The notes beneath the pieces are model-generated. The model saw only the letters and a list, made by a program, of their open reading frames with translations, was not told the origin of the DNA and searched no databases. A stretch of DNA of 42,150 bases. Origin: a virus. Positions 3,585-32,231 of this stretch are shown here, piece by piece; the stretch's first letter is position 1; each line of letters starts with the position of its first letter. Made by a program: the position numbers and the translations under genes. Location of the stretch: positions 1 to 42,150 of IMG/VR virus record IMGVR_UViG_3300025671_000143; one strand, written 5' to 3'.

Positions 3585-4034
3585 ATGCGCGCGTTTATTA
3601 CAATGTTGATTGTGCTGTTGATGACATCTCCAGCGTTTGCAGCAGATTATACCAAAAAGGTTCCAACCAACAAGTGTTCGTCTCCTATAGGCCCAATCCT
3701 AGATGGCGACAACTGGTATTGGGATATTGGTTACTCATCAAACGCTGAAGCTGCTCCTGTCTCTGTTTTTCTTGATCACCACATCGGCAATACTTCCGTT
3801 TCAGCTCAGAGATTGACCCTTTACGCCTGTCTAACTGCTGAAGATCCTAATAGTTGTGTTGCTCTTCAGTGGGACTCCGATGCTGATGGTGTCCCAGATA
3901 CTAATGTCATGGGTGCGACTGCTGCGTTGACGGATACTGGTGTGACAGGAATCAGTGGATTCCCATATCTTCGTGTTGAAGAAACAGGCACAGTAGATTC
4001 AAATGCAAGATATGTTGTTTGTAGGGGATTTTAG
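3585..4034 (+). CDS. small secreted protein with signal peptide
   Basis: 149 aa. Residues 1-19 (MRAFITMLIVLLMTSPAFA) form a textbook Sec signal peptide: short basic n-region, hydrophobic core, and A-F-A before the predicted cleavage. The mature part has four cysteines (in NKCSS, YACLT, NSCVA and VVCRG), well suited to disulfides in the periplasm or outside the cell, and a beta-rich composition with a DSDADGVPD calcium-loop-like stretch. AAGGAG precedes the ATG. It is the first of several signal-peptide proteins in the fibre region and may be a partner or cap of the large secreted proteins downstream; that is inference. I do not recognise the family. Confidence 0.7.
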   Translation: MRAFITMLIVLLMTSPAFAADYTKKVPTNKCSSPIGPILDGDNWYWDIGYSSNAEAAPVSVFLDHHIGNTSVSAQRLTLYACLTAEDPNSCVALQWDSDADGVPDTNVMGATAALTDTGVTGISGFPYLRVEETGTVDSNARYVVCRGF

Positions 4035-4055
4035 TATAGCATACATATCTACATT

Positions 4056-4445
4056 ATGGCAGATGACTTGAATGATAACACGATTGATATGTATATGCTT
4101 AGATCATACATGAACCCTCAGTGTATTGGCATCGAGGAATATAATGATGATGTGAGTCGTATTAAGTATATCAAAAGGTTACTAAACAGGTATGCCACAA
4201 ATGGAGAGTTAAAAGAACAACTACTATTGAATCATGTGATTATCATATACAATGTGTTTGGTGTGATTCCAGCCACTAGAATATTGTTCTATAATATACA
4301 GGAGGAACACTGGTCAGCACTTAAAACGATTATGGTGTTTCTTCAAACTATGCCTGATATTATAAAAGGTATCAATGGTAAAGATATTTTGAACTCGGAC
4401 ATTGCGGTCGATATGAACATCGCAAGGAGATTAAGAGAGATATGA
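4056..4445 (+). CDS. conserved hypothetical protein of T4-like phages
   Basis: 129 aa, helical, no signal peptide. The pattern EYNDDVSRIKYIKRLLNRY, then LNHVIIIYNVFGVIPATRIL and W-S-A-L-K-T-I-M-V-F-L, matches a small protein I remember as widely conserved in marine T4-like phages near neck or tail genes, with no established function. The neighbouring genes differ in kind (secreted proteins on both sides), so this is a core phage gene flanked by variable ones. Its TGA overlaps the next ATG (ATGA). Confidence 0.7.
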   Translation: MADDLNDNTIDMYMLRSYMNPQCIGIEEYNDDVSRIKYIKRLLNRYATNGELKEQLLLNHVIIIYNVFGVIPATRILFYNIQEEHWSALKTIMVFLQTMPDIIKGINGKDILNSDIAVDMNIARRLREI

Positions 4446-6961
4446 TTCCGAAAATTCGACCACTACTAATCTTCATGTGTTTTATCATTGCGAGCGTGAC
4501 ATATGCTGGAGCATTGGACGCGCCAACAGACTTCGTGCCGGGCACACCAATTATTGCTGGTGCCGTGAACACAAACTTTGACAATATTGATATTGCGGTT
4601 GATGGAAATGCAACAGACATTAACACGCTTCAAGGGAAAGTCACTGCACTAGAAAATACGTCTTCTGTGTTTAGAGCGACAGATCGAGATTCAAGTGGAA
4701 CGCTGACTGGAGCAGACATTCAGGCCACGATGGATTTGTGTGTTGGAGAATTTGCAAAAACCGGATGTATCATTGAACTTTTAAATCAAACATACACTGA
4801 TGTGAGAATTGAAATTCCTGTTGGTGTTAAAGAACTTCGCCCTATTGATGATGCCGATGCTTCATATAAACCTATTCTTGTTGGTCATGCAGATCCACTT
4901 ACCAATGCTAGAGTATCTCCACCAGTCTCAACAGATTCAATATATGAAGTAGTATATGTCGATTCAACTAATCGAACACATCCTTTGTGGATTCACGATT
5001 TTAAAATTGACGGCAATAAACAGAATTGGGTGCTTGGATCTAATGATAATAATTTTGCTGGTACTTCTCCTTACGGTATTGATAATGGGTGGGATCACAA
5101 TGATACACATGACTGCATTTCCGTAACCAGCACAGCAGACGGTACGGTCCATAGAGCAAATGGAATAATCATAGAAAGAATGCACATCGAGAATTGTGGA
5201 AAAGGTATTCAAGTATTGAACGCCGAAAATGTAGTGATCAGAGACAATCTTTTGCAAAATTTTGGTTGTTGGGATCAAAGAGCCGTATTTGCTGATCATG
5301 CAGGAACCCAAATAACCGGAGTATCAAATTTACCAGACTGGACCCCAAATGGAATTCCAGTTGATCAGGTTAGGTGTGGTGCATGGGGCGCAGGTGTAAC
5401 TAGATTAGCACTTAATCAACCGGGAAACAAATTTGAAGGATTTGGTATTCAGTTAGGGCGATCTGTCCATGAAGCTCTAATAACTGGAAACACGATAAGA
5501 TACTTCACGAAAATGGGAATTGAGACATTTTCACTAGATTATTCCAAATCAGTTCGATCGAGAAATATAAAAATCACAAACAATCGTGTATCATATGGAG
5601 CCGCAGCTGGTATTGTCAATAACTCAAATGCAGAATCCATATTGATTGATGCAAATTTAGTTGAACACATAGATGCGTTTTGGCAATACGCTAATACTGG
5701 ATTCGGAATGCAACTTCTACTCGGATCTGATTTTCAGGTAACAAATAACATCATAAGACACAGCGGAAGACAAGCTATTAACTTACAACCTTCATGTCAA
5801 TTAGAAGTTCTTGGTGGATATAATAATGATTATGTCTTTGATTGTTCTACTGTAGTAGCAAATAATGTTTTAGATCATCCATGTCAGGGAACATTGAGTG
5901 CTAACACAGGACTAACCAGCGGATCTTTTCCTTTTGGGCAAGCACGATATGATGATACTAATCAGGTACCTTTTACATTTGGTATTACTCCTTTTGTGTT
6001 AACAGGAGGAGCATATTATCAAAGTGGTAGCCCGCCATCTATACCGGCCAACCCGGACCTTGCATCTAATCTTTCTTGGATTGATAATGAAGTGTCAAAT
6101 GATTTTGCATGTCAAGCCAGTTCACTTGTTGGTACAGGCGAAACGAGGTATAACAATTCAATCTATCCCCTATTCATTAAGTTACCCGAATCATTGACAG
6201 CACTCGTATCAACGACCGATGGAACCTTGGTAAATTCAGCCACAGATAATTCAGTTGCAGCATATAATACAGACGGTACGGTACATGAAGCTCCGTGTAC
6301 GATTAGCGACACTGGATCAATTCAATGCCCCACTTCTGGATCAACACTAGACCTTGCAGCAAACTCCACTTTGGGTGGATCAATAGCACTTAAAGAAGCT
6401 AGTGGTAATGGTACAGAAACCTTTACATTGAAAGTTCCCGATTTCGATGATACTGATCCTCAAAATATTGTCGGTGGATTAACTGCTGATCGTACTTGTC
6501 TAATTGAGGATGATGGAACACCACTTGACTCTTGTGTCACAATCAACAGTACCACTGCATTTTCAGAGTGCTATACCATGTTTGTTCCTGTTCCACATGC
6601 ACCAAGCGTTGCTCCAAATTATGCAGGGAGTACCAGTCTAGGAATCCTAGATACATATGATGTTCAATCAATATGGCGCGCTCCACAAGCAGTAACAATT
6701 ACCGAAATGTGGTGTCAAACCGACAAAGGTGAGATTTCAATGGATCTTCAAATTGATAGTGGTACTCTTGCTAATGTTGCGGGAGTAGATTTGAATTGTG
6801 ACTCTACTGGAGTAGCAGATAATTCATCTTTGAATGGAAGCATGTCGGCCGGAAATACGCTTGATATTGCAATATCAAGTGTAGCGATCGTTCAGGCAGA
6901 TCGGTCAGACACGCCAGAAAGATTGACAGTTTGTTTTGAATATAACTATGTTGGTCAATAG
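4442..6961 (+). CDS. secreted right-handed beta-helix protein (adhesin or fibre)
   Basis: 839 aa. Residues 1-22 form a signal peptide (IFMCFIIASVTYA before cleavage). Next comes FVPGTPIIAGAVNTNFDNI, a motif shared with two other large proteins of the window, then a short coiled coil (VDGNATDINTLQGKVTALE). Residues 81-92 (DRDSSGTLTGAD) are an EF-hand/dockerin-like loop. Residues about 170-560 show repeated short strands with N, D and G turns (IIIERMHIENC, VVIRDNLLQN, ALITGNTIRYF, IKITNNRVSYG), the pattern of a parallel beta-helix as in tailspikes and pectate lyases. The C-terminal ~130 residues (WRAPQAVTITEMWCQTD) look like a separate beta-sandwich tip. Several Cys pairs fit a secreted protein. 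The signal peptide is odd for a phage fibre. Polysaccharide binding or cleavage is plausible but no catalytic residues can be assigned. Confidence 0.8.
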   Translation: MIPKIRPLLIFMCFIIASVTYAGALDAPTDFVPGTPIIAGAVNTNFDNIDIAVDGNATDINTLQGKVTALENTSSVFRATDRDSSGTLTGADIQATMDLCVGEFAKTGCIIELLNQTYTDVRIEIPVGVKELRPIDDADASYKPILVGHADPLTNARVSPPVSTDSIYEVVYVDSTNRTHPLWIHDFKIDGNKQNWVLGSNDNNFAGTSPYGIDNGWDHNDTHDCISVTSTADGTVHRANGIIIERMHIENCGKGIQVLNAENVVIRDNLLQNFGCWDQRAVFADHAGTQITGVSNLPDWTPNGIPVDQVRCGAWGAGVTRLALNQPGNKFEGFGIQLGRSVHEALITGNTIRYFTKMGIETFSLDYSKSVRSRNIKITNNRVSYGAAAGIVNNSNAESILIDANLVEHIDAFWQYANTGFGMQLLLGSDFQVTNNIIRHSGRQAINLQPSCQLEVLGGYNNDYVFDCSTVVANNVLDHPCQGTLSANTGLTSGSFPFGQARYDDTNQVPFTFGITPFVLTGGAYYQSGSPPSIPANPDLASNLSWIDNEVSNDFACQASSLVGTGETRYNNSIYPLFIKLPESLTALVSTTDGTLVNSATDNSVAAYNTDGTVHEAPCTISDTGSIQCPTSGSTLDLAANSTLGGSIALKEASGNGTETFTLKVPDFDDTDPQNIVGGLTADRTCLIEDDGTPLDSCVTINSTTAFSECYTMFVPVPHAPSVAPNYAGSTSLGILDTYDVQSIWRAPQAVTITEMWCQTDKGEISMDLQIDSGTLANVAGVDLNCDSTGVADNSSLNGSMSAGNTLDIAISSVAIVQADRSDTPERLTVCFEYNYVGQ

Positions 6962-6967
6962 GAGTAT

Positions 6968-9900
6968 ATGATGAATAGGTGGATCGGCATTGCTGTATTT
7001 TTATTGATCCCGTTTTTTGCGTTGGCGCAGACGGAAGAAGATATTGGATTGTTAGAGAATGATATAGAACCTACATTTCTTCCAGTTAATGTAGCGGGAG
7101 GTACTGCCAGTGGTGTAGATTTTACACCGTTTGCATATACACCTCCAGTGGTGATCGCACCGAATCAACAAGGTGTCGCATATACAGATACTTTTACGCG
7201 CACATTCTCGGATGTGTCACCAACACCCGACCCTAATCCAGACGGTCATCCTGATCTTCTTGCAGATAGGTGTTCGGGTACAGATGTTTGCAGTTGGGAG
7301 ACTGTATTTACAGACAGAAGACAAGTTTATATTGGCTATTCGAGTCAGTGGACCATTCCGGCTAATGATGCGACTAATGGTTTTGTAACCGGCGGGCCCG
7401 GGAGTAGCTATCGGGCTAGTATGACTAAACCAGCAGACACACTTTCTCAATATGTGGCTGCTCAAATATCGGGCCCGCTGTATGGTAGGTTCCACGGTGT
7501 CACTCTTCGCGGTAATGGTCTAGTTCCTGTTGTAGATAATAGACAATACTATGTGTTTAGACATAATGACAGGCCTAGTTCCAGCCCAGGCAGTGACGGC
7601 GCGGACGCGGACGCTGCATATGGAATTTATCTCTGTCGAGGTAATTATGATTGTGGAAATGGTCAATCTATCTATGAAATATCTACACAACAACTGGGAG
7701 TAATGAATCGCGGCGATTCATTAGGTATGGAAGTCAACTATGGAACAGGAAATGACATTGTATTTAAAATTTGGCATTGGACTGTGATTGGTGGTTATCC
7801 AGAGGGCCCTCCCGCTCGACCTTGGGGCGATCCAAGCCTAACAGTATGCGCTTCTGGATGCGATGTTGTGTGGACAACTCCGCCTGAAAATTATACTGAT
7901 GCGATTGATTCAACTATTAAATTTACACCAGCAACCGGAATGCACGGTGGGTTTTCTGCCGGAACCGTGGGAAGTAGTACCGAATTTGATAATTGGATGT
8001 TTGGTGATGCGTTTTATGATGCTCAGATACCCACTCAACCGGGAGAACCAACTCCAACACCAGAACCACCGCCGGTACCCCCAGCTCCCCCGGAAGGAGA
8101 CGGTGGAACCACCGTAGAAACTATAGCAACATTAGAAGGAGTGTATCCTTCTTATACTTCTGGTTCACTTCCTCCAGTTCTTCCAGCAGACATGACCACT
8201 TCAAACTCACCTGCATGGGGGCATTTGCATCCAGATTGCTCAGTCAAATATGGAACATTTCCAGCCAATCCTCCAGTATGTTCTGCTAATAACACATTAT
8301 TAGGTGATACAACCTATAGTAATTGTGTAATGAATGGCACTCAAACTTTTGCTGGAGATAATATAACAGTTGAGTGTGTTCGCTGGGATCTCGCAGGAGA
8401 TAGAATTGGGCTTGACGGTGCTGGCGGATCTCCGGCGACAGCTAGTTGGAATAGAGCCAATAAATGTTCAAATCCCGGTGGATGTAAAAATATTATCATA
8501 AGCAAAGTGACAATGGATGGATCATATGCCAGAAACGACGACGAGACTGGATATATTGAAACTGTATCAGGATCAGATTTCCTTAAATTCTCTACAACAT
8601 ACCAGCAAACATCTGATCCGATACTTTCGCATACAATAACAATCGGAACCACTTCGACATATACTACTAATTTTAGTAGGTTTGTAGGCTTTAGAACTAT
8701 AAACACAAACAAAAGAAGATTGGAAAGCGGAGTAAATAATGACACTCGCCCTATGTTTAACTATCTCGGAAGCACGAAGTGTAGTCTACAGGATGACTCA
8801 ACAATTCCTATAGGCAACATACACGTTTATTGCGGTGAAGGTACATCTGCAATACCAACAGAAAATGGAACGCTGATAGCATCTAATGTCGGTACGGTCG
8901 ATTACGCAACCGGGACAGTTACTATATTCGACACATTTACTCCAACTAACGCTACTTCACTAACTCTTCAAGCTGTGGCGCCATCAAGACACACCACACT
9001 CATCGAAAAAAGTTTGTTTCAAGGCAATCGAGTTTCAATCTTTGGTGGCTATGGCCATGACTCAAACACAGAGATAGGTGGAGCAGATTTGAATGTGCTT
9101 GGTTATCCAGGCTATTCTATGGTCATTTCGGAAAATATATTCAGGTATCCAGATTATCAAAAATCAAGCGATGGGACTATCAATGATCATATGGAACATC
9201 TGGCTATAATGGAAGAAATTAATGGAATCCTTATCAGAAATAATACATTCGTATGCGACGAGGCCGAAGAATGTAATACTGGAATTGCACTATTAGAGCC
9301 GGTAGCTGGTCAAGGTTATCCTCATGGTGTAAATACTATTGATTGGTATGGAAATAGATTTGTTGGAGATGCTGCTGGATATATGATAAATTTTCCACCT
9401 GCCAGTAAGCCTTTTTGCCCAACGAATCAAAAATATATTGGAAATGTGTTTGAAGACCCACAAACACCCACAAACGTAACTCAATTTCAAGCAGGTGGAT
9501 TTACTGAAGATCCATCCTACGGAGTTGGAATGTTTTCTGGTGCATGTAGGCCATTCCTAGAGTGTGATCTTAATTTGTTAAATGGTGAATCATACGGTTC
9601 TGTTGTTAATCAATGTATATTTACACCGCCAACATATTATCAGGTTGCTAATCCTCCGGCAGCAGATCCCACTGCGCTTCCTTTATATGATGCTGTTTCT
9701 CGCCCTGAGGGATATTACCCCGGAATGTTTAGTACGGGAGAGAATGTTGATGGTAGTGGGGGATACCCTGCGGGCGGGGCTCTCGGTGCCATTCCATATG
9801 GCCAGCCATCAATTCCTTCAGAGATGGTGAGTGATGGAACAACCACACCTAGTGCCACAAACAATTTTCCTGCATGGGGGCATTTGCATCCAGATTGTGT

Positions 9901-12900
9901 GACTGAGTATGGCTCGCCTGGAGATGGTTTGGGGCTAGCGCGTTCTGCTCCAACGTGGAACATAACTGATAATGAATGCACAACGGTTACTGATGGGAAT
10001 GGAGTCCGTACTATTGCAGCAAACAGTACCGTAGAAAACTGTACGTTGACAACTCAAGAACCAGTAAACTTATTGGGTGATAACATTACGTTTAAGTGTA
10101 TGGTCATTGATGTACCTGGAGATTATCTGAATCCCCCAACAGGAGGCCTAGGGGATAGACAAACCGGAATAACTTGCAAGAATGATTATCAAAATGTCCC
10201 CGGCGTTGGTTTTAGATACACTGGATCAGCTTGCAAAAACACAGTATTTACTAAAATAACTACGGATGGGAATTGGGCTCCCGCAACTGCCCCCGGAGGC
10301 CGTGATCTTTATGGGGTGTTAGAAGAAGACGGAGGAATTGCGAGCGAACCATTTGCGGCTGAACATATTGTCGCAGATGGCCTTACTGTTGGATCAAACG
10401 GGCGTGGAGGCGAAACTTCGCTTCTTATGCCTGATGGCGGATTTAATGGTACATATAATAGCGAAACTTTCACCACTCCATTTGTTGATACAGGAACACA
10501 TACTACAACATCATTTGTGATACAAACTGATGCCGGGTTATCTGTAATTCCAAATGGAGTGGCCGCGGCCGGCGCTACTATTATTGTTAAGAATCTTACA
10601 AATGGAGCTTCGAGTGAAAGTGTAATTCAATCATATGATTCGGGTACCCGAACTGTTACTGTTTCTCCGGCACTTAGTTTCACTCCGACTTCAGGCAATC
10701 AATACTTTATAAACCCGGTATTCAGGCCTGGAGGATCATATCCAAACGGTACATACATTCGCGCATACAACGAAGCCCCTTCTAGCTTTGATGCTTTACG
10801 CATAGATACTGGTGCTTATTATACTTTTAGACGAACGTGGACGCGATGGAAGAAAAATGCAGACAATACTATTTACCTAGATGACGCTGGCAGAAGAGAG
10901 GCCATAGGTTATTACAATTACGGAATAACCGGCTCTCGCACATTGATGCCCGGTGCGGCGTGGGGTGATTCATATGATTTATTTAACGATCCAGCTACAG
11001 TTCTTATAGAAAAGTCAGTTCTACAAGGTGACGGCACTCATGTATGGACAGACAGTATAGATGGAAGGGTTGCATCAGTTACAGGTTATCCTGGGTATGG
11101 ATTGGTCATCAAGGAAAATATATTCAGATGGGGAAAGCATCACCATCATCACGAATATACTATTCGTGATCACGGCAATATGTTAACAGCATCACAACAT
11201 ATGTTTGGTATGTTAGTTAAGGACAATATCTTCGTTTGTGATTGGGAAAACGGCATGGTTGATCCAGACACGGGGAGACACAATTTTAATGGATGCCCGA
11301 CCTCAGCTTTCATGGTTCAACCCGACACAGGTAATGGTTCTGGAATTGATGTTATAGGAAATGTATTTTGGGGAGATGACGCAGGTCCAGCTATGTCTTG
11401 GGGGCATAATATTGCGAAGCCCGGCCGTTGTGTTCTTGGGGCTAGAGTATTAGACAACAAATTTTATGCACCTGTTATCGGCAACAAAGTTGCTGAAGGT
11501 TTTTATGCTGATCCGTTTTATCTTTCACCGGGCTCCGAAAATTGTAGATTAGACGGCTGGAAACCCGATAGATGGGGTGATGTGATTACGGAGTGTAGAG
11601 GGAATAAAGTTCAATATGAGGATGCGGACGCTCGGCGAAGTGGGACATCCCATATGTATAATCGTGTTTGGAATCCTGAAGAAGATTTATTCTATGATAA
11701 TGGTACGGGCGGAGGATGTATACCAACTCCTGTTGCTGTTCCAGGTTCTCCCGATCCGAATATTGGAGTGGAGTTTAGATTAGATACACCTGAATCTCCT
11801 CTAGCTCTAGGGCGGCTTAACACTTTAGCATATACTGAATTACCATATAAGGTACAGGTTACTCCTGTGAGTCCCCAATCTTATTCAACTATGTTCTGGG
11901 CATCAAACCGACAAAATTATCTTAACCTTGTTTACAAAAGATTTTACGACGGCCAGTATACTCTTGGAACTTCTCCTTATTCAGCAGAGAAGAAGACAAA
12001 GGGAGGTAGTATTGATGTGGGTGTTTTTGATCCAACTCAAAATCCGCCGTTCCGCTTCAATACAGTGGATTCAAACGGCGATTATGATGTATATCCTTCA
12101 GGGTTATTAGAGATGTCTTCGGACATTATTACAGTTCCAGAAGAAATGAATGCCACAAATCATATCGCATGGGGACATCTCCATCCAGAGTGTGCTGATA
12201 TATATGGAGAGTTTGACTGGAATAATGTTTGTGACACTGATTATAGTGATAATATTGACCCGGCGACTGGGCAAATTTATATCAATCCATATACCGGAAC
12301 TCCTTATAAACCTGGGGTAATTCCGCCGGGTGTCACTCTGAGTAACTGTCGTGTTGGGCCATCACCTGAAGAACGGGAATCCATTTTGATTGCTGGTGAC
12401 AATGTAACTGTTGATTGTGTTTTATTTGATTATGATGGAGATTTAAAAAATAATCGCGAATACGCCGTATCACCGAGCGGGCCTAGCTCGGCGTTCTACT
12501 GTATGCACGATCTTAATTCCACCTATTCGGGTGTTTCGTGTCAAAATTTGAATATTCGGAGATCAACATTTGATGGGTCATATATACCTAATCAATTAAG
12601 TTACACTGTAGACGGAAATAAACAATTTGCGGATTATGTCGTAGAGCAGGGAGCGACACTTGAAAATGTTCGCAATCTTAGTGGATCAAGAGCCTTTGGG
12701 TTCGTAGGTACTATGAGTCGTATACGCGCCGAGTCGCCAAGGATTTATCATAGCATACTCGTAGAGAAGAGTTTATCTCAGGGTCAATGGATAAACATGC
12801 AACTCGGTGGTGGATCGGATTCTGCTGGAAATAGATGGCCGATGTTTGATGGCGATCAAGCGTCTGTTGAAGGATATTCTGGAACAAATGGAGAACCAGG

Positions 12901-14755
12901 CCCATATGCTCTGGTTGTTAAGGACAACATATTCAGATTTCCAGATGGTCAATTATGGAATACTACAGACGAAAAGCTCGGGCCCGAACCGAATCTTAAC
13001 GTAAGTGATCATGTAAATTCAATTTATATCTCTGGTCCTGTCGATGGCGTTTTGTTTGATAATAATCTAATAACATGCGCTGAAGGAGACGCATGTGGTT
13101 CATCCGTTGGGTCATTCTTTTCCGTGACGGGGGCCACAGCCGACGAAGACGCTTCGATCAGGAATGTCCACTATACTAATAATAGATGGATTGTTGACCA
13201 TGAAGGATGGGGTTGGGCCATTAAAGGTGGATACCAAAATAACTGGGGATGCGATGGCGGCGGGGCTCCACTCATAGACGTACAAATAATCAATAACAGA
13301 TTTGATAACCCAGGAGACACTGATCCAGATGCTATGCGTTATGGAAATGGTACACCGTGGGCTCCGCAAACACCCACAAAAGAACCAGATGATCCAAGAG
13401 TGCTTTTGTTTCCCACTAAACATTACAACAGCCCTACTGATATAAGAATCTCCCGGGCCAACTGGACTACAGTAATGGTCAATAATTATGTAAGAACCAC
13501 GGTTGGAACACCACCCAACGCCACAAGCGGCGGAAAGGAATGTAAGTCGCAGATTACAAAATGTTATGGTAACACATGGAACGGAGGAATGAATACAAAG
13601 GTTCCTTGGACTGTTGCCCAGCAATCTTTTATAAATCCAGGCATTTCGCCGACGTGTGGTGATGTATTGCCACCAACAGGCGCTTCTGAAGTTGGGCACA
13701 GACAGTCTAGCTGTGAGGCTGATTACGGCCTTGATGCTGCTACTATTGAAGCAACTCCATGTAGCATTACAAATGGAGAATTGACAGCCGGCACAACATA
13801 CACTGCATGTAGTATTGCTGGCCCTGTTACACTGCAAGGAAGCGATATTACGCTCGATTGCGTTTATATGGACACAGGAACGACAGCTTCAGTTTATGGT
13901 ATAAGCTGTGACAACACCACTTCATCTTGCGATAATATTGAAATCAAACGATCAACCCTCATAGGAAACAATGGAAGTAATTCAACTCCAATGACCGGAT
14001 TGATTCATACGGGCGAAAGCACCAGCGGAACAGCCGTAATTAGAATGTTAATCGAAGGTAATGATATTAGCGGAGCGGACGGTTTGATTTCAATCGCAGG
14101 AGACCATATGGAATTAGCTTCGGATCTTTATGCGTTTGATGACTCAGTTACTTATCCTACTCCAATCAGATCAGCAGGGCAGGCAAATGGCCTTAACGGC
14201 GATAAACTTAGTGTTGATGTGGGCGATGTAGTGTCGGATCTGCGGTATCCAGGCTATGCTATTGTTGTGAAGGAAAACTATCTTCACGGTAATGTTGCAA
14301 CGACCGGAGGAACTGGAACCACAGACTTCATTGCAATAACTGGATCTCCTCGTGGTGTGCTGGTTAAAAATAATTTCCTTGATTCAACTGGGTCTATTCC
14401 TGATGATGGATCAATGGTTCGAGTTGAAATGAGTGGCGATGGCCCTGGCGGTGCTGGTGAATATACTTTCAGTAACAATCACATCATTCCAGATGGGCAA
14501 GGCCCAGTAGTGAACTTTGCTCCAGGCGCAAGTTGTTATGTTCCAGTTAAAAATTCAGTACCCGCTAATAATGAGCGTCTAAAGTGGGTAGGAAATGAAG
14601 TAGAATACACACCCACCGCTGGTACGCTGTTTAATTATAATCGAGCTGGATGCGCCAACCCGACACCAACGCTTATCGAACGCGAGCCATTTTTCTGTGC
14701 TGGAAACACTTTTGGTGATGGTAGCCACCAGACTTGTACGCCTAACGGATTTTAA
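6968..14755 (+). CDS. giant modular secreted beta-helix protein, 2595 aa
   Basis: Signal peptide at residues 1-20 (WIGIAVFLLIPFFALA before cleavage). GGAG lies 3 bp before the first ATG and 6 bp before a second ATG at 6971, so the latter may be the true start. Residues about 55-350 resemble a concanavalin/LamG-type lectin domain (FKIWHWTVIGG, GGFSAGTVGSSTEFDNWMFGD). A Pro-rich linker follows (PTPTPEPPPVPPAPP, about 360-377). Then come four modules opened by AWGHLHPDC at 416, AWGHLHPDC at 969, AWGHLHPEC at 1734 and a degenerate GHRQSSC at 2243. Each module repeats the order GDNxT..C, a DG-rich segment, EKSxxQG, GYPGY-like, VIxENIFR-like, and NN or DN strands of a beta-helix. Many cysteines are conserved between modules. 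This is likely a surface or receptor-binding protein; I know no described homologue of this size. Confidence 0.8.
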   Translation: MMNRWIGIAVFLLIPFFALAQTEEDIGLLENDIEPTFLPVNVAGGTASGVDFTPFAYTPPVVIAPNQQGVAYTDTFTRTFSDVSPTPDPNPDGHPDLLADRCSGTDVCSWETVFTDRRQVYIGYSSQWTIPANDATNGFVTGGPGSSYRASMTKPADTLSQYVAAQISGPLYGRFHGVTLRGNGLVPVVDNRQYYVFRHNDRPSSSPGSDGADADAAYGIYLCRGNYDCGNGQSIYEISTQQLGVMNRGDSLGMEVNYGTGNDIVFKIWHWTVIGGYPEGPPARPWGDPSLTVCASGCDVVWTTPPENYTDAIDSTIKFTPATGMHGGFSAGTVGSSTEFDNWMFGDAFYDAQIPTQPGEPTPTPEPPPVPPAPPEGDGGTTVETIATLEGVYPSYTSGSLPPVLPADMTTSNSPAWGHLHPDCSVKYGTFPANPPVCSANNTLLGDTTYSNCVMNGTQTFAGDNITVECVRWDLAGDRIGLDGAGGSPATASWNRANKCSNPGGCKNIIISKVTMDGSYARNDDETGYIETVSGSDFLKFSTTYQQTSDPILSHTITIGTTSTYTTNFSRFVGFRTINTNKRRLESGVNNDTRPMFNYLGSTKCSLQDDSTIPIGNIHVYCGEGTSAIPTENGTLIASNVGTVDYATGTVTIFDTFTPTNATSLTLQAVAPSRHTTLIEKSLFQGNRVSIFGGYGHDSNTEIGGADLNVLGYPGYSMVISENIFRYPDYQKSSDGTINDHMEHLAIMEEINGILIRNNTFVCDEAEECNTGIALLEPVAGQGYPHGVNTIDWYGNRFVGDAAGYMINFPPASKPFCPTNQKYIGNVFEDPQTPTNVTQFQAGGFTEDPSYGVGMFSGACRPFLECDLNLLNGESYGSVVNQCIFTPPTYYQVANPPAADPTALPLYDAVSRPEGYYPGMFSTGENVDGSGGYPAGGALGAIPYGQPSIPSEMVSDGTTTPSATNNFPAWGHLHPDCVTEYGSPGDGLGLARSAPTWNITDNECTTVTDGNGVRTIAANSTVENCTLTTQEPVNLLGDNITFKCMVIDVPGDYLNPPTGGLGDRQTGITCKNDYQNVPGVGFRYTGSACKNTVFTKITTDGNWAPATAPGGRDLYGVLEEDGGIASEPFAAEHIVADGLTVGSNGRGGETSLLMPDGGFNGTYNSETFTTPFVDTGTHTTTSFVIQTDAGLSVIPNGVAAAGATIIVKNLTNGASSESVIQSYDSGTRTVTVSPALSFTPTSGNQYFINPVFRPGGSYPNGTYIRAYNEAPSSFDALRIDTGAYYTFRRTWTRWKKNADNTIYLDDAGRREAIGYYNYGITGSRTLMPGAAWGDSYDLFNDPATVLIEKSVLQGDGTHVWTDSIDGRVASVTGYPGYGLVIKENIFRWGKHHHHHEYTIRDHGNMLTASQHMFGMLVKDNIFVCDWENGMVDPDTGRHNFNGCPTSAFMVQPDTGNGSGIDVIGNVFWGDDAGPAMSWGHNIAKPGRCVLGARVLDNKFYAPVIGNKVAEGFYADPFYLSPGSENCRLDGWKPDRWGDVITECRGNKVQYEDADARRSGTSHMYNRVWNPEEDLFYDNGTGGGCIPTPVAVPGSPDPNIGVEFRLDTPESPLALGRLNTLAYTELPYKVQVTPVSPQSYSTMFWASNRQNYLNLVYKRFYDGQYTLGTSPYSAEKKTKGGSIDVGVFDPTQNPPFRFNTVDSNGDYDVYPSGLLEMSSDIITVPEEMNATNHIAWGHLHPECADIYGEFDWNNVCDTDYSDNIDPATGQIYINPYTGTPYKPGVIPPGVTLSNCRVGPSPEERESILIAGDNVTVDCVLFDYDGDLKNNREYAVSPSGPSSAFYCMHDLNSTYSGVSCQNLNIRRSTFDGSYIPNQLSYTVDGNKQFADYVVEQGATLENVRNLSGSRAFGFVGTMSRIRAESPRIYHSILVEKSLSQGQWINMQLGGGSDSAGNRWPMFDGDQASVEGYSGTNGEPGPYALVVKDNIFRFPDGQLWNTTDEKLGPEPNLNVSDHVNSIYISGPVDGVLFDNNLITCAEGDACGSSVGSFFSVTGATADEDASIRNVHYTNNRWIVDHEGWGWAIKGGYQNNWGCDGGGAPLIDVQIINNRFDNPGDTDPDAMRYGNGTPWAPQTPTKEPDDPRVLLFPTKHYNSPTDIRISRANWTTVMVNNYVRTTVGTPPNATSGGKECKSQITKCYGNTWNGGMNTKVPWTVAQQSFINPGISPTCGDVLPPTGASEVGHRQSSCEADYGLDAATIEATPCSITNGELTAGTTYTACSIAGPVTLQGSDITLDCVYMDTGTTASVYGISCDNTTSSCDNIEIKRSTLIGNNGSNSTPMTGLIHTGESTSGTAVIRMLIEGNDISGADGLISIAGDHMELASDLYAFDDSVTYPTPIRSAGQANGLNGDKLSVDVGDVVSDLRYPGYAIVVKENYLHGNVATTGGTGTTDFIAITGSPRGVLVKNNFLDSTGSIPDDGSMVRVEMSGDGPGGAGEYTFSNNHIIPDGQGPVVNFAPGASCYVPVKNSVPANNERLKWVGNEVEYTPTAGTLFNYNRAGCANPTPTLIEREPFFCAGNTFGDGSHQTCTPNGF
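8210..14755 (+). repeat. four tandem diverged protein modules (AWGHLHP repeats)
   Basis: Module starts are at about 8213, 9872, 12167 and 13694, giving module lengths of about 553, 765, 509 and 352 residues. Modules one and two share an identical 29-bp stretch (8210-8238 and 9869-9897, covering the PAWGHLHPD codons); module three has the same residues with other codons, and module four keeps only G-H and C. Later landmarks also repeat: LIEKSLFQG, LIEKSVLQG, LVEKSLSQG and LIEGNDISG, then ENIFRYP, ENIFRWG, DNIFRFP and ENYLHG. This indicates internal duplication followed by divergence, with recent homogenisation between the first two. Confidence 0.8.
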
Positions 14756-14767
14756 AAGGAAAATCAA

Positions 14768-15121
14768 ATGAAATCATTTGAAGAACTAAGAGAAATGATG
14801 GGAATTGGTGGAGGAGGTATTGCTGGATCTGCTGAAGCTGGTGATGATCCACCTGTCCGAAAGAAGGATCAAGCAAAGCTGATTCGTCGCAACAGATTTA
14901 TGAAGAATGAGGTATTTGAAGTTCCTGCTGAGATATATAATCGTATTCTACGCCCCAAGTTCAATGCAGAGAGATTCAACTCTATTGTGGGAGCAGATGA
15001 GATCGGAGAAGCGATTCGTCAGTATGCCAAGGACAACCCAGGTAAAGGCATTCTAGTTCAATGCGAAAATACTGGATGTATGACGTGGTTGAGACTGCCT
15101 CGCGCAAGAAAGGCTAAATAG
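14768..15121 (+). CDS. small conserved virion-associated protein of T4-like phages
   Basis: 117 aa, cytoplasmic, no signal peptide. MKSFEELREMM followed by a Gly/Ala-rich segment (GIGGGGIAGSAEAGDDPP), a KK-rich stretch, and a C-terminal half ending in IRQYAKDNPGKGILVQCENTGCMTWLR. Cyanophages and pelagiphages carry a protein with this layout (Gly-rich N-terminus, QYAxDNP, ENTGxMxxxR) among their structural genes; the role is unknown. Its presence between signal-peptide proteins shows that the beta-helix genes sit inside the virion block. AAGGA lies 7 bp before the ATG. Confidence 0.75.
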   Translation: MKSFEELREMMGIGGGGIAGSAEAGDDPPVRKKDQAKLIRRNRFMKNEVFEVPAEIYNRILRPKFNAERFNSIVGADEIGEAIRQYAKDNPGKGILVQCENTGCMTWLRLPRARKAK

Positions 15122-15122
15122 C

Positions 15123-15368
15123 ATGTGGGAAACAATTATTGGTGGAGTAGTTACTTTAGTTGTCGGATTGTTCGGTATCTGGTGGAAAAATAGAACTGAC
15201 AAGACAAAGCAAGAAGAACTCGGTGAACAAAGAATTTCTAATCTGCACCATCAGAAAAATGCAGCAGCCAAGAAAGCTGCTGATAAAAGACTCAGACAGG
15301 ATTTGCCCGAAGGGAAGGAGTTAATAGATGCGCTGGAAGAAGACGCTCGCCGCTCTGGTCGCGATTAG
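15123..15368 (+). CDS. one-TM small membrane protein (holin- or i-spanin-like candidate)
   Basis: 81 aa. Residues 3-21 (ETIIGGVVTLVVGLFGIWW) make one membrane segment with almost no n-region, followed by a charged helical tail (KNRTDKTKQEELGEQ, then AAAKKAADKRL). No cysteine. An N-terminal anchor plus a charged helix fits an inner-membrane spanin subunit, a small holin, or a membrane tether; a small lipoprotein encoded at 21097 could be an outer-membrane partner, though the two are not adjacent. Its 3' end overlaps the next gene by 41 bp, in which the Shine-Dalgarno for that gene lies. Function not established. Confidence 0.65.
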   Translation: MWETIIGGVVTLVVGLFGIWWKNRTDKTKQEELGEQRISNLHHQKNAAAKKAADKRLRQDLPEGKELIDALEEDARRSGRD

Positions 15369-17742
15369 TATATCTGGTATTTCGTATGCTGAATCGTTGG
15401 CTCCCGGTGCTACGACTACATTTAACACGGGAGATCCAATAATTGCTGGTGATATGAATACTAATTTTAATAATATTGTTACTGAGGTTAATGATAATGA
15501 TGGTCGTATTGATCAGAATATAATCAACATTGGTACTAATGTAACAGACATTAGTAATATTAAATCGACTATCGGCGGAACTTTTCCGAGAACACCTACA
15601 TTAGATTCGCAAATTGTTAGTTTAGAAAATACGAGAGACAATCGTACTGTCGTGTCTTTGTTGGATTATCCCAACATATATCCGTGGATAGGTAATGATG
15701 GTCCCGGTGTTGCGCTGAACGATATTCCAGCGAGTAGTATTGCAAGTTATAACTTTACAGTAAATCCCGTTAATCTCGCTAATGATCAAGATAGTGGGCC
15801 AGGCATACAAGCTGCTATGCAAGATGCCATCGACAACCATCTTGTTTTGGAATTTCCTGTAGGTCAAATATTTTGGATCAAAACTCCGATTACTCTTTAT
15901 GTTGGTAGTGAACACGAAGTCGGGCCTAACGCGGATCTCGAACCTCTTTTGGATCAACAAACTTTCGATATTCGAGGAAATAATTCGGAGCTTTATGTAG
16001 CTAACTGGGGAACTTTCAATGGACCTGTTATAACAATTAAGGGAAGGCAGTTGCTAGCGGAAATGGCTGATCCGAATAAACGTGTTGCGTCGGCCTTTTC
16101 ATCTTCAATCAGAGACTTAAAAATAGAACTTAATGGGCATTATAATCAAGATCCTCATCGTGATTTATATGCACTTCAAATAGGTCATCCAGATTATGCA
16201 ACATCGGCTGATGGTCAACTTAACATTGAAGGTTGGCGCATAAAACGTAGATTTACAAATAATTCGCAGAACTCGGTGCTCAACAACGAAAAGGAAGGTT
16301 ATTTCAACAATGCTTTAATAAAAGTAACAAATACTAATTTATTCACAATTCGAGATTGCAATCTTGTGTTCGGAGGAATTTACATAGAAGGTGTGAATGG
16401 TTATGTTTCTGGTAGCGCATGGATTCATGGCAATGACATTAGAGGCCCAATGTCAGGAAGAGGATCAACAGGTGGCGAGATGACCTGGGCTCCTGACATC
16501 AATACCAATGCTCTTATAGCGGATCGCGCTTTGACAATATATTCTTCGAGTGGCGGGCAAGCTGCATCAATCTATGTTAGTGAAAATCAACTATATCATG
16601 CCTCGGCATTAATTCGAGCAGATGCGACCAGTTCCATTCATAATATTCACATGAGCGATAATGAGTTTGATATTGGCGTAGATAGTACGCCTTTTGTTAG
16701 AGTATCTATTGAACCGCAGCCGAACAATACGGCCGTGCATGAAGCGGGAATCTTTTTTCTTCGTTTCACTGATAATACATTTTCTGCACCATCCAATTCT
16801 CCTATTTTCCTGTTTGAAGGGGGATTCTCTCCAAATCGACTTAGTGGCCTTCCGGGGATTTATGGTCTTTCTATAACAAGCAATAGTGCGATTCTTGGTA
16901 ATTCATATGACCCATCAGTCGCACTCACCGGGTCGACCCAGGCGACTGTCCCATCCGCTGATGGCATCCCCGGCCTTAACACATACGGTGCTTTAGTTCA
17001 TATGGACGATATGGTAGACACAGCAGTTATTAGTGACAACACCATTTCAAAGTATGGTGGATATAGTTGGAATACGGCCGTCGGCGACACCGTCGCCGAC
17101 ACGCCACCTTGGACATCATTAGTCAGTATTCAAAATAATGCATCGAACCCACAAAAGAAAAAATATATAAATGTGACCAACAATATTTGGGAGGATAGTG
17201 AAAGAGAATTCTGGACTCAAGCTACTACCATTGGTTCGTTAAATGGAGTATTTCCAAGCACCGCTCCAGCGTCAGCGGTTAGATTAATTGATTCAATACC
17301 ACATGATCTTAATCTTGTAGTTCAAGGAAATAATTTTCCACCAAACGTCCCCACATTATCATATGCCAACATAGCTCAAAATTTAATTAATGGAGGGCGA
17401 TTCGTAATCGAAGGTAATAGCACTTCTAGTGTTATTACCACCACTGCGACTGCTAAAGTGTGGGTACCAGATGGAGCGATGATGAACCTGAGCAGCGGGA
17501 GCCCCATTAGAAACTTTGTTGTCGGTGACGGATCATCTGCTCCCCCGGCAGGTCACGAATTTACGGTATATGCAAGCGGTACGATTACTATAAATCACGA
17601 AGACAACTCTAATCAAGATAATGGAAAAATATCACTCATTCACGGTCAGAATTTAATTGTTCCGACTGGAACTGTTTTGAAATTTATTTCTGATGGAACG
17701 GTTGTTCGCGAAATCGGTGGCACATCTCAATTTGCTCCATAG
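15328..17742 (+). CDS. secreted beta-helix protein, paralogue A
   Basis: 804 aa. AAGGAG lies 7 bp before the ATG, which sits inside the previous gene. Signal peptide at residues 1-21 (MRWKKTLAALVAISISGISYA). TFNTGDPIIAGDMNTNFNNI follows, the same post-signal motif as in the protein at 4442. At residues about 155-180, DSGPGIQAAMQDAIDNHLV then EFP resembles the first turns of pectate-lyase-3 type tailspikes. After that come beta-helix rungs (LFTIRDCNLVFGG, IYVSENQLYHAS, IHNIHMSDNEFD). The C-terminus is a beta domain (HEFTVYASGTITINHED). It is clearly homologous to the next gene over the first ~700 residues. It could be a fibre, a polysaccharide-binding adhesin or a depolymerase; no catalytic residues are assigned. 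Confidence 0.8.
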   Translation: MRWKKTLAALVAISISGISYAESLAPGATTTFNTGDPIIAGDMNTNFNNIVTEVNDNDGRIDQNIINIGTNVTDISNIKSTIGGTFPRTPTLDSQIVSLENTRDNRTVVSLLDYPNIYPWIGNDGPGVALNDIPASSIASYNFTVNPVNLANDQDSGPGIQAAMQDAIDNHLVLEFPVGQIFWIKTPITLYVGSEHEVGPNADLEPLLDQQTFDIRGNNSELYVANWGTFNGPVITIKGRQLLAEMADPNKRVASAFSSSIRDLKIELNGHYNQDPHRDLYALQIGHPDYATSADGQLNIEGWRIKRRFTNNSQNSVLNNEKEGYFNNALIKVTNTNLFTIRDCNLVFGGIYIEGVNGYVSGSAWIHGNDIRGPMSGRGSTGGEMTWAPDINTNALIADRALTIYSSSGGQAASIYVSENQLYHASALIRADATSSIHNIHMSDNEFDIGVDSTPFVRVSIEPQPNNTAVHEAGIFFLRFTDNTFSAPSNSPIFLFEGGFSPNRLSGLPGIYGLSITSNSAILGNSYDPSVALTGSTQATVPSADGIPGLNTYGALVHMDDMVDTAVISDNTISKYGGYSWNTAVGDTVADTPPWTSLVSIQNNASNPQKKKYINVTNNIWEDSEREFWTQATTIGSLNGVFPSTAPASAVRLIDSIPHDLNLVVQGNNFPPNVPTLSYANIAQNLINGGRFVIEGNSTSSVITTTATAKVWVPDGAMMNLSSGSPIRNFVVGDGSSAPPAGHEFTVYASGTITINHEDNSNQDNGKISLIHGQNLIVPTGTVLKFISDGTVVREIGGTSQFAP

Positions 17743-17761
17743 CAATATAAGGACATCAAGG

Positions 17762-20700
17762 ATGAAAAACTTAAATCACATATTAATATTCGTCTTAATA
17801 CTGTTGAGCATGTCTTTTATAGGGCATACCCGAGAACTGACCAACGCAGACACTACAACATTTGCAAATGGAGATTCTATTTCTGCTACAACCATGAATC
17901 AAAATTTCAATAGTATTATTACAAATGGAGTGAATGACAATAATACCAATATTAATACTCTCCGAACTGATGTTAACAGTACGTTAGGTGTAACTATTCC
18001 AACCACACCAACATTCAATGCTCGGGTTGATGACCTTGAGAGTTCAAAAACCAAGAGAGCTGTTGTGTCGATCGACGAGTATCCAAACGTATTTCCATAT
18101 TATGATAGTAATGATAATCCGTTGTATACGGCAGGAACGCGAGATAGTGGTCCAGGTATCCAAGCGGCCATTCAGGATGCTATAGATAACCATCTTGTTT
18201 TGGAGTTCCCCGCCAATCAGCTATATTGGATTCATGGTACTATTACTGTTTATGTTGGAGCTGATTCTGCGGTGGATGCCCAACCGCACCAGGGCGAGCA
18301 ATCATTTGATATTAGAGGAAACTTTAGTAAACTTTGGGCTTGGAATTGGGAAAACTTTAACGGACCTATGTTGAGAGTTCTTTCAAGGGAAACTCTAAAC
18401 AATATAAACTATCGCTCATTTGGAGGACGCTTTGAGAACTTTCAACTTGAAATGAATGGCCATTACGGGTCCGGGCCTCCACATCCAGATATGTATGCTA
18501 TTCAAGTTGGCGCCGCTAATAATTCTGTATGGCCCCGTCATAGATTGTTTTTTGAAGGATTCCATATCTCTCGCAAAATTGGCCAAAGTACCTTATACAC
18601 CGGAGCAGGCGGTGCCACTCAGACAATCGACTACAACAATAATGCCGTCGTCGTTACCAATTCTAAACATATTGTGTTTAGAGATTGTTCATTCATAACT
18701 GGAGGAATTACTTTTCAAGCTGTTCCTAATCCAGATAATAGTGACGCTGGAGGATTTGTTGGGGATCTTTGGGTAGATAACTGTGATCTTAGAGGAACAC
18801 CAACAGACGCCACCACGTTCGTAAACGGTGCAACACCAGAAGGGCCTGGCAATGAAACAGCAGCAATCACACCATATCGAGCTATTACAATTCGCGCTGA
18901 AGGAAATGATCTTGTATTTGATGGAGCATCAAGAAACCCATCCCAAGTAGGTGGACTATATGTAACAAATAATCAAATCTATGGTGGAAATGTTTTGATC
19001 CGCGCAGACAAGAACTCATCTCTTCATAATGTTCATTTCACACACAACGAGTTTGATTGGAGTGGAGATGGTGTTCCTCATGTAAAACTTGCTGTATATG
19101 GAGGAGACGGAACCTTTGGCGCTAGTGGAATTAGTGATGCCATTCATGACAGAGGTAACATGCACGCTATTAGGTTTGTAGAAAATACATTCACTGTTCC
19201 AAAGAACGCACCAGTTTTTGTCATTGAGGATCTTCCTCCAGCTTCATCATCGGGCTCGGCGATTGGAGGAACCGATGCTGAAATATATGATGTTGGGTTC
19301 ATCAATAACAGGGCTGACGGTGGCATAGTTACAACCGGAACCGCGCAGCCCGCAGCATTTTTGCAAATGGATGGTAGTGTTAATAATATCATCATTGATG
19401 GTAATGTTGTTAATCGTTATGCTGGTGATGGAAGTTGGACAAGTATGGTTAGCGTTGACAATGCAAAAGGAAAAATCAACTTCAATAATAATCAGTGGGA
19501 CGATAGCGTAGAAAACTGGATTCCGGGGCAGGTTTATAGTTATACAGGCGACAATGCTGCCTCACAAAAGCCCACCAACGCAATCAATTTTACAGGAACT
19601 ACTGAGAATACGCTTACCATGACTGCTACTGGAAATGTATTCCCAGATGGTGTTAATCTAGTCGGAGGAAATCAAAATGGGCGTATTATAGTAGGCACAA
19701 ACACAGCGTCAGCGGTAAAAAATATTGATCTCAATTCTCTTAGCACCATACCTCCTAACGAGCCGCGTCTCGCGAGACCGTATGCACCCAATGTAACGAT
19801 TGGAGCATTGAATGTAGTAACTAATACTACTAATCCTTCTAACGGCGTTGGCTGGGATATTGAAACTTTTCATGTAGATGATGATACAACACCAAATCGG
19901 CCGGCCCCCCCTGCCGGATCGAAATTTTCAATCAAGGTTGACGATCCGAACGGACTTGAAATATTGGATACCAGTAATCGAAGCACCTACCCAACCAGCA
20001 CCAACCGGAGCGAATATGGTAGAATACATACCCTATCAGGATCTCCAAAGATATTTCCACAAGGATCTATTATTGAATTTATTTCGGACGGAACTGATGT
20101 TTGGGAACTTCCAGGTACATCAACCAGTGTACGCGATTTGAGTGATGTATCATCGGCAATCCCCGCAGCCGGTAACACCCTAGTATACGACGCAGTTGCT
20201 CAAGAATACCAGCCTGGTAATCCAGGTTCAGGAATAGAATTGGGAGATTTGTCAAATGTCATAACAGATCCAGCCATTACCCAGGTCGCCCTGGCGATCG
20301 GCAGGGTATTAAAATGGAATGGTGCTCGCTGGGAGCCGGGTTTGGATAATGAAACCTCAGGGACAACAAACCTCAGCGACCTGCCGGATGTCTTTATAGA
20401 GGCAGGTGCTATAAATCCCGAGGAGGTCGCGAGTGGAGACCTCCTGCGAATTAACACTGACACGCCGTCCGGGGAGCCACAATATATTAGCACTAAAACA
20501 AACACATACAGAAAAATGATGTCTGTGTCTATAGATCCTTGGCCAACAGCCTCGAATGTTATAGATGTTTTAATAAGCCAGGCTGGCGTTAATGAGGATT
20601 TAATAATAGTGTTTGAGGATATAATATTTACTGAACGTGTTAATGCAATAGGAATACAAGTTATAAACGGAGCGGCGGGGACCACATATATAAATGAAGG

Positions 20701-21100
20701 TTATCATTTCCGAACAGAGTCGGATAGAGGTGGAGGTGTACCGTCAGCAAACCATGGTGGTGTAAATGCAATTCCTTATTTTAGAGGTGATAACTCAGGA
20801 AATTCAACGATAGGAATAAAAAGACTTGAGATGAGAGTAACACAAGCGACCGAGAACTCTGGAATGTTCATAGACATGGAAGGACAATTTATATACAATC
20901 CCGGTGGTGGAACGGATACATATACATCGTATGTTAAAGGTTGGCTAAGCCTCGATGATCTTGATCCATCGGGGAATAACAATATCAAACAAATAAAAAT
21001 AATACCATCTCAAACCAATGGTACGCCAGTCACAGAAAATGCAAGTAATATTATTCCTGCTGGTTGGAGATTGTCTACTTATCGAGAGCTGACACCATGA
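17762..21100 (+). CDS. secreted beta-helix protein, paralogue B with tail-fibre C-terminus
   Basis: 1112 aa from the ATG at 17762, chosen because AAGGA precedes it and it gives a signal peptide (MKNLNHILIFVLILLSMSFIG); the open frame runs 69 bp further upstream inside the previous gene. Post-signal motif TFANGDSISATTMNQNFNSI. Residues about 127-150 match paralogue A (SGPGIQAAIQDAIDNHLV). Beta-helix rungs follow (IVFRDCSFITGG, LYVTNNQIYGG, LHNVHFTHNEFD). After about residue 780 it gains a part paralogue A lacks: repeats of LSDVSS, LGDLSN and LSDLPD with RVLKWNGARWEPG, typical of phage tail fibres, then a beta-rich end domain. A fibre-type C-terminus behind a signal peptide is unusual. Its TGA overlaps the next ATG. 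Confidence 0.8.
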   Translation: MKNLNHILIFVLILLSMSFIGHTRELTNADTTTFANGDSISATTMNQNFNSIITNGVNDNNTNINTLRTDVNSTLGVTIPTTPTFNARVDDLESSKTKRAVVSIDEYPNVFPYYDSNDNPLYTAGTRDSGPGIQAAIQDAIDNHLVLEFPANQLYWIHGTITVYVGADSAVDAQPHQGEQSFDIRGNFSKLWAWNWENFNGPMLRVLSRETLNNINYRSFGGRFENFQLEMNGHYGSGPPHPDMYAIQVGAANNSVWPRHRLFFEGFHISRKIGQSTLYTGAGGATQTIDYNNNAVVVTNSKHIVFRDCSFITGGITFQAVPNPDNSDAGGFVGDLWVDNCDLRGTPTDATTFVNGATPEGPGNETAAITPYRAITIRAEGNDLVFDGASRNPSQVGGLYVTNNQIYGGNVLIRADKNSSLHNVHFTHNEFDWSGDGVPHVKLAVYGGDGTFGASGISDAIHDRGNMHAIRFVENTFTVPKNAPVFVIEDLPPASSSGSAIGGTDAEIYDVGFINNRADGGIVTTGTAQPAAFLQMDGSVNNIIIDGNVVNRYAGDGSWTSMVSVDNAKGKINFNNNQWDDSVENWIPGQVYSYTGDNAASQKPTNAINFTGTTENTLTMTATGNVFPDGVNLVGGNQNGRIIVGTNTASAVKNIDLNSLSTIPPNEPRLARPYAPNVTIGALNVVTNTTNPSNGVGWDIETFHVDDDTTPNRPAPPAGSKFSIKVDDPNGLEILDTSNRSTYPTSTNRSEYGRIHTLSGSPKIFPQGSIIEFISDGTDVWELPGTSTSVRDLSDVSSAIPAAGNTLVYDAVAQEYQPGNPGSGIELGDLSNVITDPAITQVALAIGRVLKWNGARWEPGLDNETSGTTNLSDLPDVFIEAGAINPEEVASGDLLRINTDTPSGEPQYISTKTNTYRKMMSVSIDPWPTASNVIDVLISQAGVNEDLIIVFEDIIFTERVNAIGIQVINGAAGTTYINEGYHFRTESDRGGGVPSANHGGVNAIPYFRGDNSGNSTIGIKRLEMRVTQATENSGMFIDMEGQFIYNPGGGTDTYTSYVKGWLSLDDLDPSGNNNIKQIKIIPSQTNGTPVTENASNIIPAGWRLSTYRELTP

Positions 21101-21348
21101 ACAAAAAACAAAACTACATAATAGTAATGATAGTGCTACTAAACACCGGATGCGCTCCTTGGTGGAAAACTGATGTTGTGGTATCCTATGAACCTCCAAG
21201 ATGTGATATTATCTGGGAGTCGGATGATCGGGCAGAATTGATTGCCTTTATGGACAGCGAGCTACCATCAGATAAGGTATTCGAGAAGATTGCCGAATAT
21301 CGGCGGTATTGTAATGCTGTGAATGATTATATCAACGGAGCTGAGTAG
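21097..21348 (+). CDS. small putative lipoprotein
   Basis: 83 aa from the ATG at 21097, which overlaps the previous stop (ATGA). The n-region MNKKQN, a hydrophobic core (YIIVMIVLL) and LLNTGC make a plausible lipobox with the cysteine at residue 19, so a lipid-anchored periplasmic or outer-membrane protein is likely. The mature part is short and acidic with two further cysteines (PPRCD and YRRYCN). It could be an outer-membrane spanin subunit, a surface anchor for the large secreted proteins, or an exclusion lipoprotein; nothing in the sequence decides between these. It is the last gene before the primase promoter. Confidence 0.65.
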   Translation: MNKKQNYIIVMIVLLNTGCAPWWKTDVVVSYEPPRCDIIWESDDRAELIAFMDSELPSDKVFEKIAEYRRYCNAVNDYINGAE

Positions 21349-26567: not shown

Positions 26568-26581
26568 ATATGGAGGGCACG

Positions 26582-30052: not shown

Positions 30053-30070
30053 ATGAGGAGATGTTGTTTG

Positions 30071-31219: not shown

Positions 31220-31234
31220 TCGTATGGAGCTTTT

Positions 31235-32218: not shown

Positions 32219-32231
32219 ATGAGGTAATTTG

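Follow-up and report, generated by a model that had tools for sequence, protein, structure and literature searches.

The window, by which we mean the whole stretch of DNA analysed, is a linear virus record of 42,150 bases. Judged by its genes, which include a cytidyltransferase, DUF7207, a gp61-type primase, ThyX, ribonucleotide reductase, a RuvC-like resolvase and tRNAs, its content is that of a T4-like phage. Among phage records the primase finds its top matches in cyanophage primases (41% identity), and the main structural module is absent from the contig. The host of the lineage is probably a member of the Pseudomonadota. Relatives were located through the primase and DUF7207 genes; the record L003 and its near-identical companions have flanking proteins 88-99% identical to those of the window, and L007 is a more distant relative.

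Positions 26570-33146 hold a sugar cluster of glycosyltransferases, epimerases and an aminotransferase, in which, from about position 27565 on, DNA homology to L003 is patchy and down to about 69% from 97%. The aminotransferase was tried as a pointer to the host, but its matches reach 36-41% and lie in Pelagibacteraceae, Flavobacteriaceae and Bdellovibrio, so that no host is named. A 288-aa protein encoded at 2020-2886, with weak similarity to the KOW motif and nine Cys, including a tight Cys cluster, looks metal-binding. Late-promoter-like TAAATA sites number nine on the coding strand and nine on the other strand. On the G001 contig of a close relative, positions 2870-4471 of L090 encode an AAA ATPase with proteasomal-ATPase OB domains (PF17758, PF16450, PF00004).

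The region of interest comprises six genes, named here by their first position (Table 1), which are real open reading frames with the coordinates given to them in the initial annotation. Ribosome-binding sites are convincing for five of the six, the exception being 21097. The start of 15328 overlaps the 15123 gene by 41 nt. The first gene, 3585, is kept with its leader in close relatives at 91% identity, with a dN/dS of 0.29. The large proteins 4442, 6968, 15328 and 17762 are referred to below as the giants.

Table 1. Genes and variable slots of the region, with positions in the window
Feature	Position	Strand	Remarks
149-aa conserved protein, predicted exported	3585..4034	+	leader residues 1-19; 4 Cys
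Variable slot A	4442..14767		between the DUF7207 gene and gene 14768; DNA homology to L003 interrupted
839-aa beta-helix protein, predicted exported	4442..6961	+	leader about 1-22, then VNTNF module; 19 Cys; PF13229
2595-aa protein, predicted exported	6968..14755	+	leader 1-20; four diverged tandem repeats; 54 Cys; without VNTNF module
Conserved flanking gene, phrog_3286, family of unknown function	14768..15121	+	PHROG match; kept in relatives
Left border of slot B: 81-aa protein, single N-terminal transmembrane stretch	15123..15368	+	possible i-spanin or holin
804-aa protein, predicted exported	15328..17742	+	leader 1-21, VNTNF module, probable beta-helix body
Variable slot B	15486..21144		DNA homology to L003 interrupted
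1112-aa protein, predicted exported	17762..21100	+	leader about 1-23, VNQNF-type module, beta-helix-like body
Right border of slot B: lipoprotein of 83 aa, from its position a probable o-spanin	21097..21348	+	

Leaders and the module behind them

Five of these proteins had been described as carrying Sec-type leaders, and by sequence all five do, 17762 being the weakest case. The leaders read MRAFITMLIVLLMTSPAFA^A in 3585, MIPKIRPLLIFMCFIIASVTYA^G in 4442, MMNRWIGIAVFLLIPFFALA^Q in 6968, MRWKKTLAALVAISISGISYA^E in 15328 and MKNLNHILIFVLILLSMSFIGHT^R in 17762, which has the weakest cleavage site of the five. Each consists of a short positive n-region, an unbroken hydrophobic stretch and a small-residue cleavage site, and the twin-arginine motif is absent from all of them. 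They were graded with a rule-based score of our own for the n-, h- and c-regions, which is no substitute for SignalP; it passes 15 out of 15 well-known E. coli leaders. The scores are 7.4 for 3585, 8.0 for 4442, 7.5 for 6968 and 7.0 for 15328, while 17762, read from its own start, falls below the threshold of 6.5 (6.34). Among the 20 window ORFs that encode 200 aa or more, three (4442, 6968 and 15328) pass this threshold; the background is one of 319 ORFs from the primase regions of other T4-like phages (Fisher p = 7e-4) and none of 438 shuffled N-termini. By this measure the window leaders are far above the T4-like background. It is very likely, as predicted from their N-termini, that the proteins cross the inner membrane into the periplasm; a Sec leader alone implies no further travel to the cell surface.

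Directly behind the leader, three of the four giants (4442, 15328 and 17762) share a module of the form 'tF..Gt.i.a..vNtNF..I', and the same succession of Sec leader and module is found in a 1091-aa protein of L003 and a 569-aa protein of L007. The module is absent from 6968 and 3585, as well as from the 664-aa and 387-aa proteins of L007. A tblastn search of 50,697 phage records (E <= 1, one phage and one bacterial representative as queries), a method that is not very sensitive with a sequence this short, did not find it. A leader-plus-module profile has matches in 16 of 399 sampled Pseudomonadota genomes and an extended profile in 22 of the 399, the latter with none in 198 Bacteroidota genomes or in 36 other T4-like contigs. 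Because profiles A1 and A4 contain leader columns, the association with the leader was re-tested with A5, which represents the module alone. This profile retrieved 28 proteins from 22 of the 399 Pseudomonadota genomes, 27 of which have a leader directly before the module (scoring 6 or more and ending no further than 12 residues from it), a proportion in which some bias remains since the rows of A5 were partly drawn from A1 hits.

The bodies of the bacterial module proteins are varied: one is collagen-like, one C-type-lectin-like by eye, and some have coiled C-terminal ends. Those filed as L109-L126 and L131-L186 are exported-type proteins of Pseudomonadota that share the leader-plus-module start and continue into bodies that differ widely; the module itself was not found here under any family name. 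The module also occurs without a leader. In the viral contig L191, which is unrelated to the window lineage, it opens a leaderless VNANF-module gene (5995-6303) downstream of which coding continues in another frame, and the neighbours, by their order, look like a virion-protein cluster. In Roseobacter phage CRP-5 a weaker match, again leaderless, opens a protein annotated as a 'putative structural protein'. By sequence comparison the leader-plus-module of the window giants is homologous to that of the bacterial proteins with leaders, and the contrast with these two leaderless phage examples, few as they are, suggests that the window genes group with the bacterial exported form.

The initial annotation had offered a choice between true export and an origin of the fibre genes in secreted proteins of bacteria, the leader being a remnant. 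The data join these two readings: there is a match to a bacterial module, and the leader looks used and not relic. It matches, together with its module, a widespread exported-protein module of Pseudomonadota, and unrelated bodies in the corresponding slots of related phages bear leaders as well.

Two variable slots and their borders

The layout seen in the window recurs in related phages, where the same slots contain other leader-bearing genes between the same flanking genes (L003 and L007). DNA homology between the window and L003 extends to 4445, resumes from 14768 to 15485 and again from 21145. Slot A is empty in L003, its two flanking genes abutting, and in L007 it holds a 664-aa protein and the end of another one. 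Slot B has its left breakpoint after the leader and module of 15328, and its right breakpoint cuts the leader of lipoprotein 21097. Here L003 has a single protein of 1091 aa, which resembles the C-terminal part of 17762 (E 9e-9), and L007 has two, of 387 and 569 aa. A leader is present on all slot proteins that have their start within the sequence, of which four belong to the window, three to L007 and one to L003. Taken alone, the slot B leader of L003 is a weak case, since it is homologous, with its module, to that of 15328 and lies partly within the overlapping gene; the leaders of 17762, of the slot A proteins and of the L007 proteins differ in sequence. By these comparisons the bodies are swapped in two slots with the leaders kept, and in slot B with the following module as well.

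Further leader-bearing proteins of 1305, 290, 282 and 528 aa are encoded outside the two slots on a 73.8-kb contig of the L003 group (L090 7045-10962 on the minus strand, 12887-13759 and 13780-14628; L092 7786-9372). No family match was found for any of the four.

The lipoprotein gene 21097 had been grouped with the giants, an assignment that we revise. Spanin genes lie immediately upstream of or near the primase in other T4-like loci, with PHROG matches to the spanin pair or its lipoprotein in L009, L013, L015, L026, L040, L053 and L062 and a similar-looking pair before the primase in Stenotrophomonas phage DLP_6, and 21097 occupies that position. Its mature part has a dN/dS of 0.03 over 66 codons, indicative of strong purifying selection. 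From position and constraint, a lysis gene that borders slot B is likelier than a member of the giants. The leader (window 21097-21150) is swapped with respect to L003, the rest being 98% identical. As for the lipobox that the initial annotation saw, LNTGC in the window fails the strict pattern at -3, and the orthologues have the better LTTGC and LFTGC. On the other side of the slot, 15123 is 97% identical in relatives and shows weak PHROG matches to Rz-like proteins (E 0.009) and to holins (E 0.006). We read 21097 as a probable o-spanin bordering slot B, and 15123 may be the i-spanin, with the difference that spanin pairs are adjacent in other T4-like loci and these two genes are separated by slot B. 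The placing of 4056 and 14768 among the core virion proteins was not established either; their sole matches are families of unknown function, and neither matches a solved structure.

Bodies of the giants

All the giants had been described as beta-helices, a description that has direct profile support for 4442 (PF13229, E 9e-8) and no other. For 15328, which is 32% identical to 17762, the support is an AlphaFold2 model of low confidence (aligned with 17762, mean pLDDT about 41). Nearly all of its best Foldseek matches are right-handed beta-helices, such as the PfbA adhesin, tailspikes and polysaccharide lyases, and those in the viral library are tailspike and pectate-lyase proteins, with low TM-scores and with E-values that at best reach 1e-3 for PDB entries and 3e-7 for the viral library. 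The model of the 6968 repeat (mean pLDDT again about 41) was uninformative and its Foldseek results meaningless; 6968 also has no Pfam or PHROG match over the cut-off. From the beta-helix resemblance, the bodies may bind or cleave glycans. None of these proteins could be placed in a catalytic family.

Cys residues of 6968 are conserved in three or four of its four diverged repeats, a pattern that would fit disulfides. This argument does not extend to 15328 and 17762, in which Cys is nearly absent. The C-terminal end region of 17762 contains tail-fibre-like 'LSDLsDV...G.vL.ynG..W' repeats. Neither an outer-membrane anchor domain nor a recognised virion-attachment domain was found on the giants. 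Autotransporter and two-partner secretion were considered as export routes and rejected, no giant having a Pfam match to a C-terminal beta-barrel or an N-terminal TPS domain at E 0.1. Homologues of the bodies of 4442, 6968 and 15328 were not found by tblastn in the 50,697 phage records, nor by pattern scans of viral contigs, and PDB sequence searches with the giants gave no match. The 664-aa protein of L007 likewise had none in the genome-contig scan.

Readings of the locus and known systems

The reading we prefer, to which we give about an even chance, is that of a T4-like lineage with diversifying exported giants that act on the surface polysaccharides of the host population and thereby aid the spread of progeny. 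We infer export, disulfides, the glycan target, an enzymatic activity, the timing and the benefit of the giants alike. The diversifying genes of these phages would encode large proteins destined for export, which the Sec translocon and signal peptidase of the host would take into the periplasm, where the Cys-rich ones could form disulfides. The giants would then get outside by a host secretion route or at lysis. Once there, their beta-helix and other bodies would bind or cut the surface polysaccharides of the host population, which would allow progeny to escape and spread. Swapping of bodies with leaders kept is what one would expect if the targets vary between hosts.

A broader formulation, which we consider possible and put forward tentatively, holds that this is a dedicated diversifying locus of exported giants built on a captured bacterial leader module, with products that serve during infection as a released public good or as a cell-surface coat and are not virion parts. 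Such a locus would have two cassette slots, one of them between probable lysis genes.

That the giants are instead tail fibres or tailspikes of the virion, with an N-terminus acquired from bacterial secreted proteins and a leader that is unused, or cleaved with attachment from outside or at lysis, appears unlikely to us. Swapping the body behind a conserved N-terminus is what fibres classically do, the bodies are tailspike-like in a weak model, and tail-fibre-like repeats are present in 17762 and in the L003 protein. The collagen-like body of the 569-aa protein of L007 matches tail-fibre PHROGs through its collagen stretch, and collagen and such repeats are typical of virion fibres. Moreover, a tail fibre of 1775 aa lies in the syntenic interval of DLP_6, a cultured relative. 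That fibre, however, has no leader, as is the case for the two module proteins in virion-type phage loci (L191 and CRP-5), and no slot protein with a known start has the leaderless N-terminus expected of a virion fibre. An unused leader should also decay, but in slot A and in other places unrelated bodies have intact leaders that differ from one another.

Export could alternatively provide a coat on the infected cell or its receptors against other phages or the phage's own progeny, that is, a superinfection-exclusion shield or decoy. The leaders and the variable bodies in two slots would suit this role, as would the Foldseek similarity to the surface adhesin PfbA, drawn from the weak 15328 model. 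We judge it rather improbable, as the giants lack an outer-membrane anchor, a lipobox or an autotransporter domain. Known phage exclusion proteins are small.

Still less probable is a service in lysis, in which giants exported late with the spanins would act from within the periplasm to loosen the capsule or envelope. Slot B does lie between the transmembrane gene 15123 and the probable o-spanin gene 21097, at the position of the spanin pair in other T4-like phages. Against this, 15123 is weakly spanin-like, slot A lies outside the pair, L003 does without slot A proteins and variability does not suit a conserved lysis function. An assembly artefact or contamination joining bacterial genes to a phage contig, which the bacterial character of the leader module might bring to mind, has next to no credibility, because the slots recur in contigs of other records (L003 and L007), filled with different leader-bearing genes and framed by the same phage genes, and because the slot boundaries fall at gene starts or in frame inside genes.

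Phage tailspikes are usually studied as parts of the virion, and the open-access literature that was searched does not describe spike-like giants of phages that bear Sec leaders. If our preferred reading of exported giants is true, cells infected by such a lytic-type phage would secrete surface-active proteins chosen by the phage before or at lysis, and these would act on neighbours, on the biofilm matrix or on competing phages.

The right-handed beta-helix tailspikes and tail-fibre depolymerases of phages (for example HK620, CBA120 TSP3 and Sf6) resemble the giants in their large size and probable beta-helix body, in a conserved N-terminus followed by a swapped body and in variation between close relatives. 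Unlike the slot proteins of the window, which bear leaders and have no recognised virion-attachment domain, they are virion parts without a Sec leader. Auxiliary polysaccharide enzymes of phages, such as the GH32 enzymes of Bacillus phages, reported to be without signal peptide (PMC4595243), and a soil viral chitosanase (PMC9485262), are non-virion and glycan-directed, as is proposed for the giants, but they are single enzymes, whereas the window holds a swappable set. WceF of Pantoea stewartii, an exported, tailspike-like trimeric beta-helix that acts on exopolysaccharide (PMC7949094), sets a precedent for tailspike-like folds working after export. It differs in being a bacterial protein of an exopolysaccharide operon with a Tat leader (PMC7949094). 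The Pseudomonadota proteins with a leader and a 'TFtaGTPa.AadVNANF' module have the same order of leader and module and the same variability of bodies as the window, although they are bacterial, are encoded mostly by frames of 170-490 aa and, as far as examined, stand in another gene order. Through the shared leader module, phage spike-like proteins are tied to widespread bacterial proteins of the exported type.
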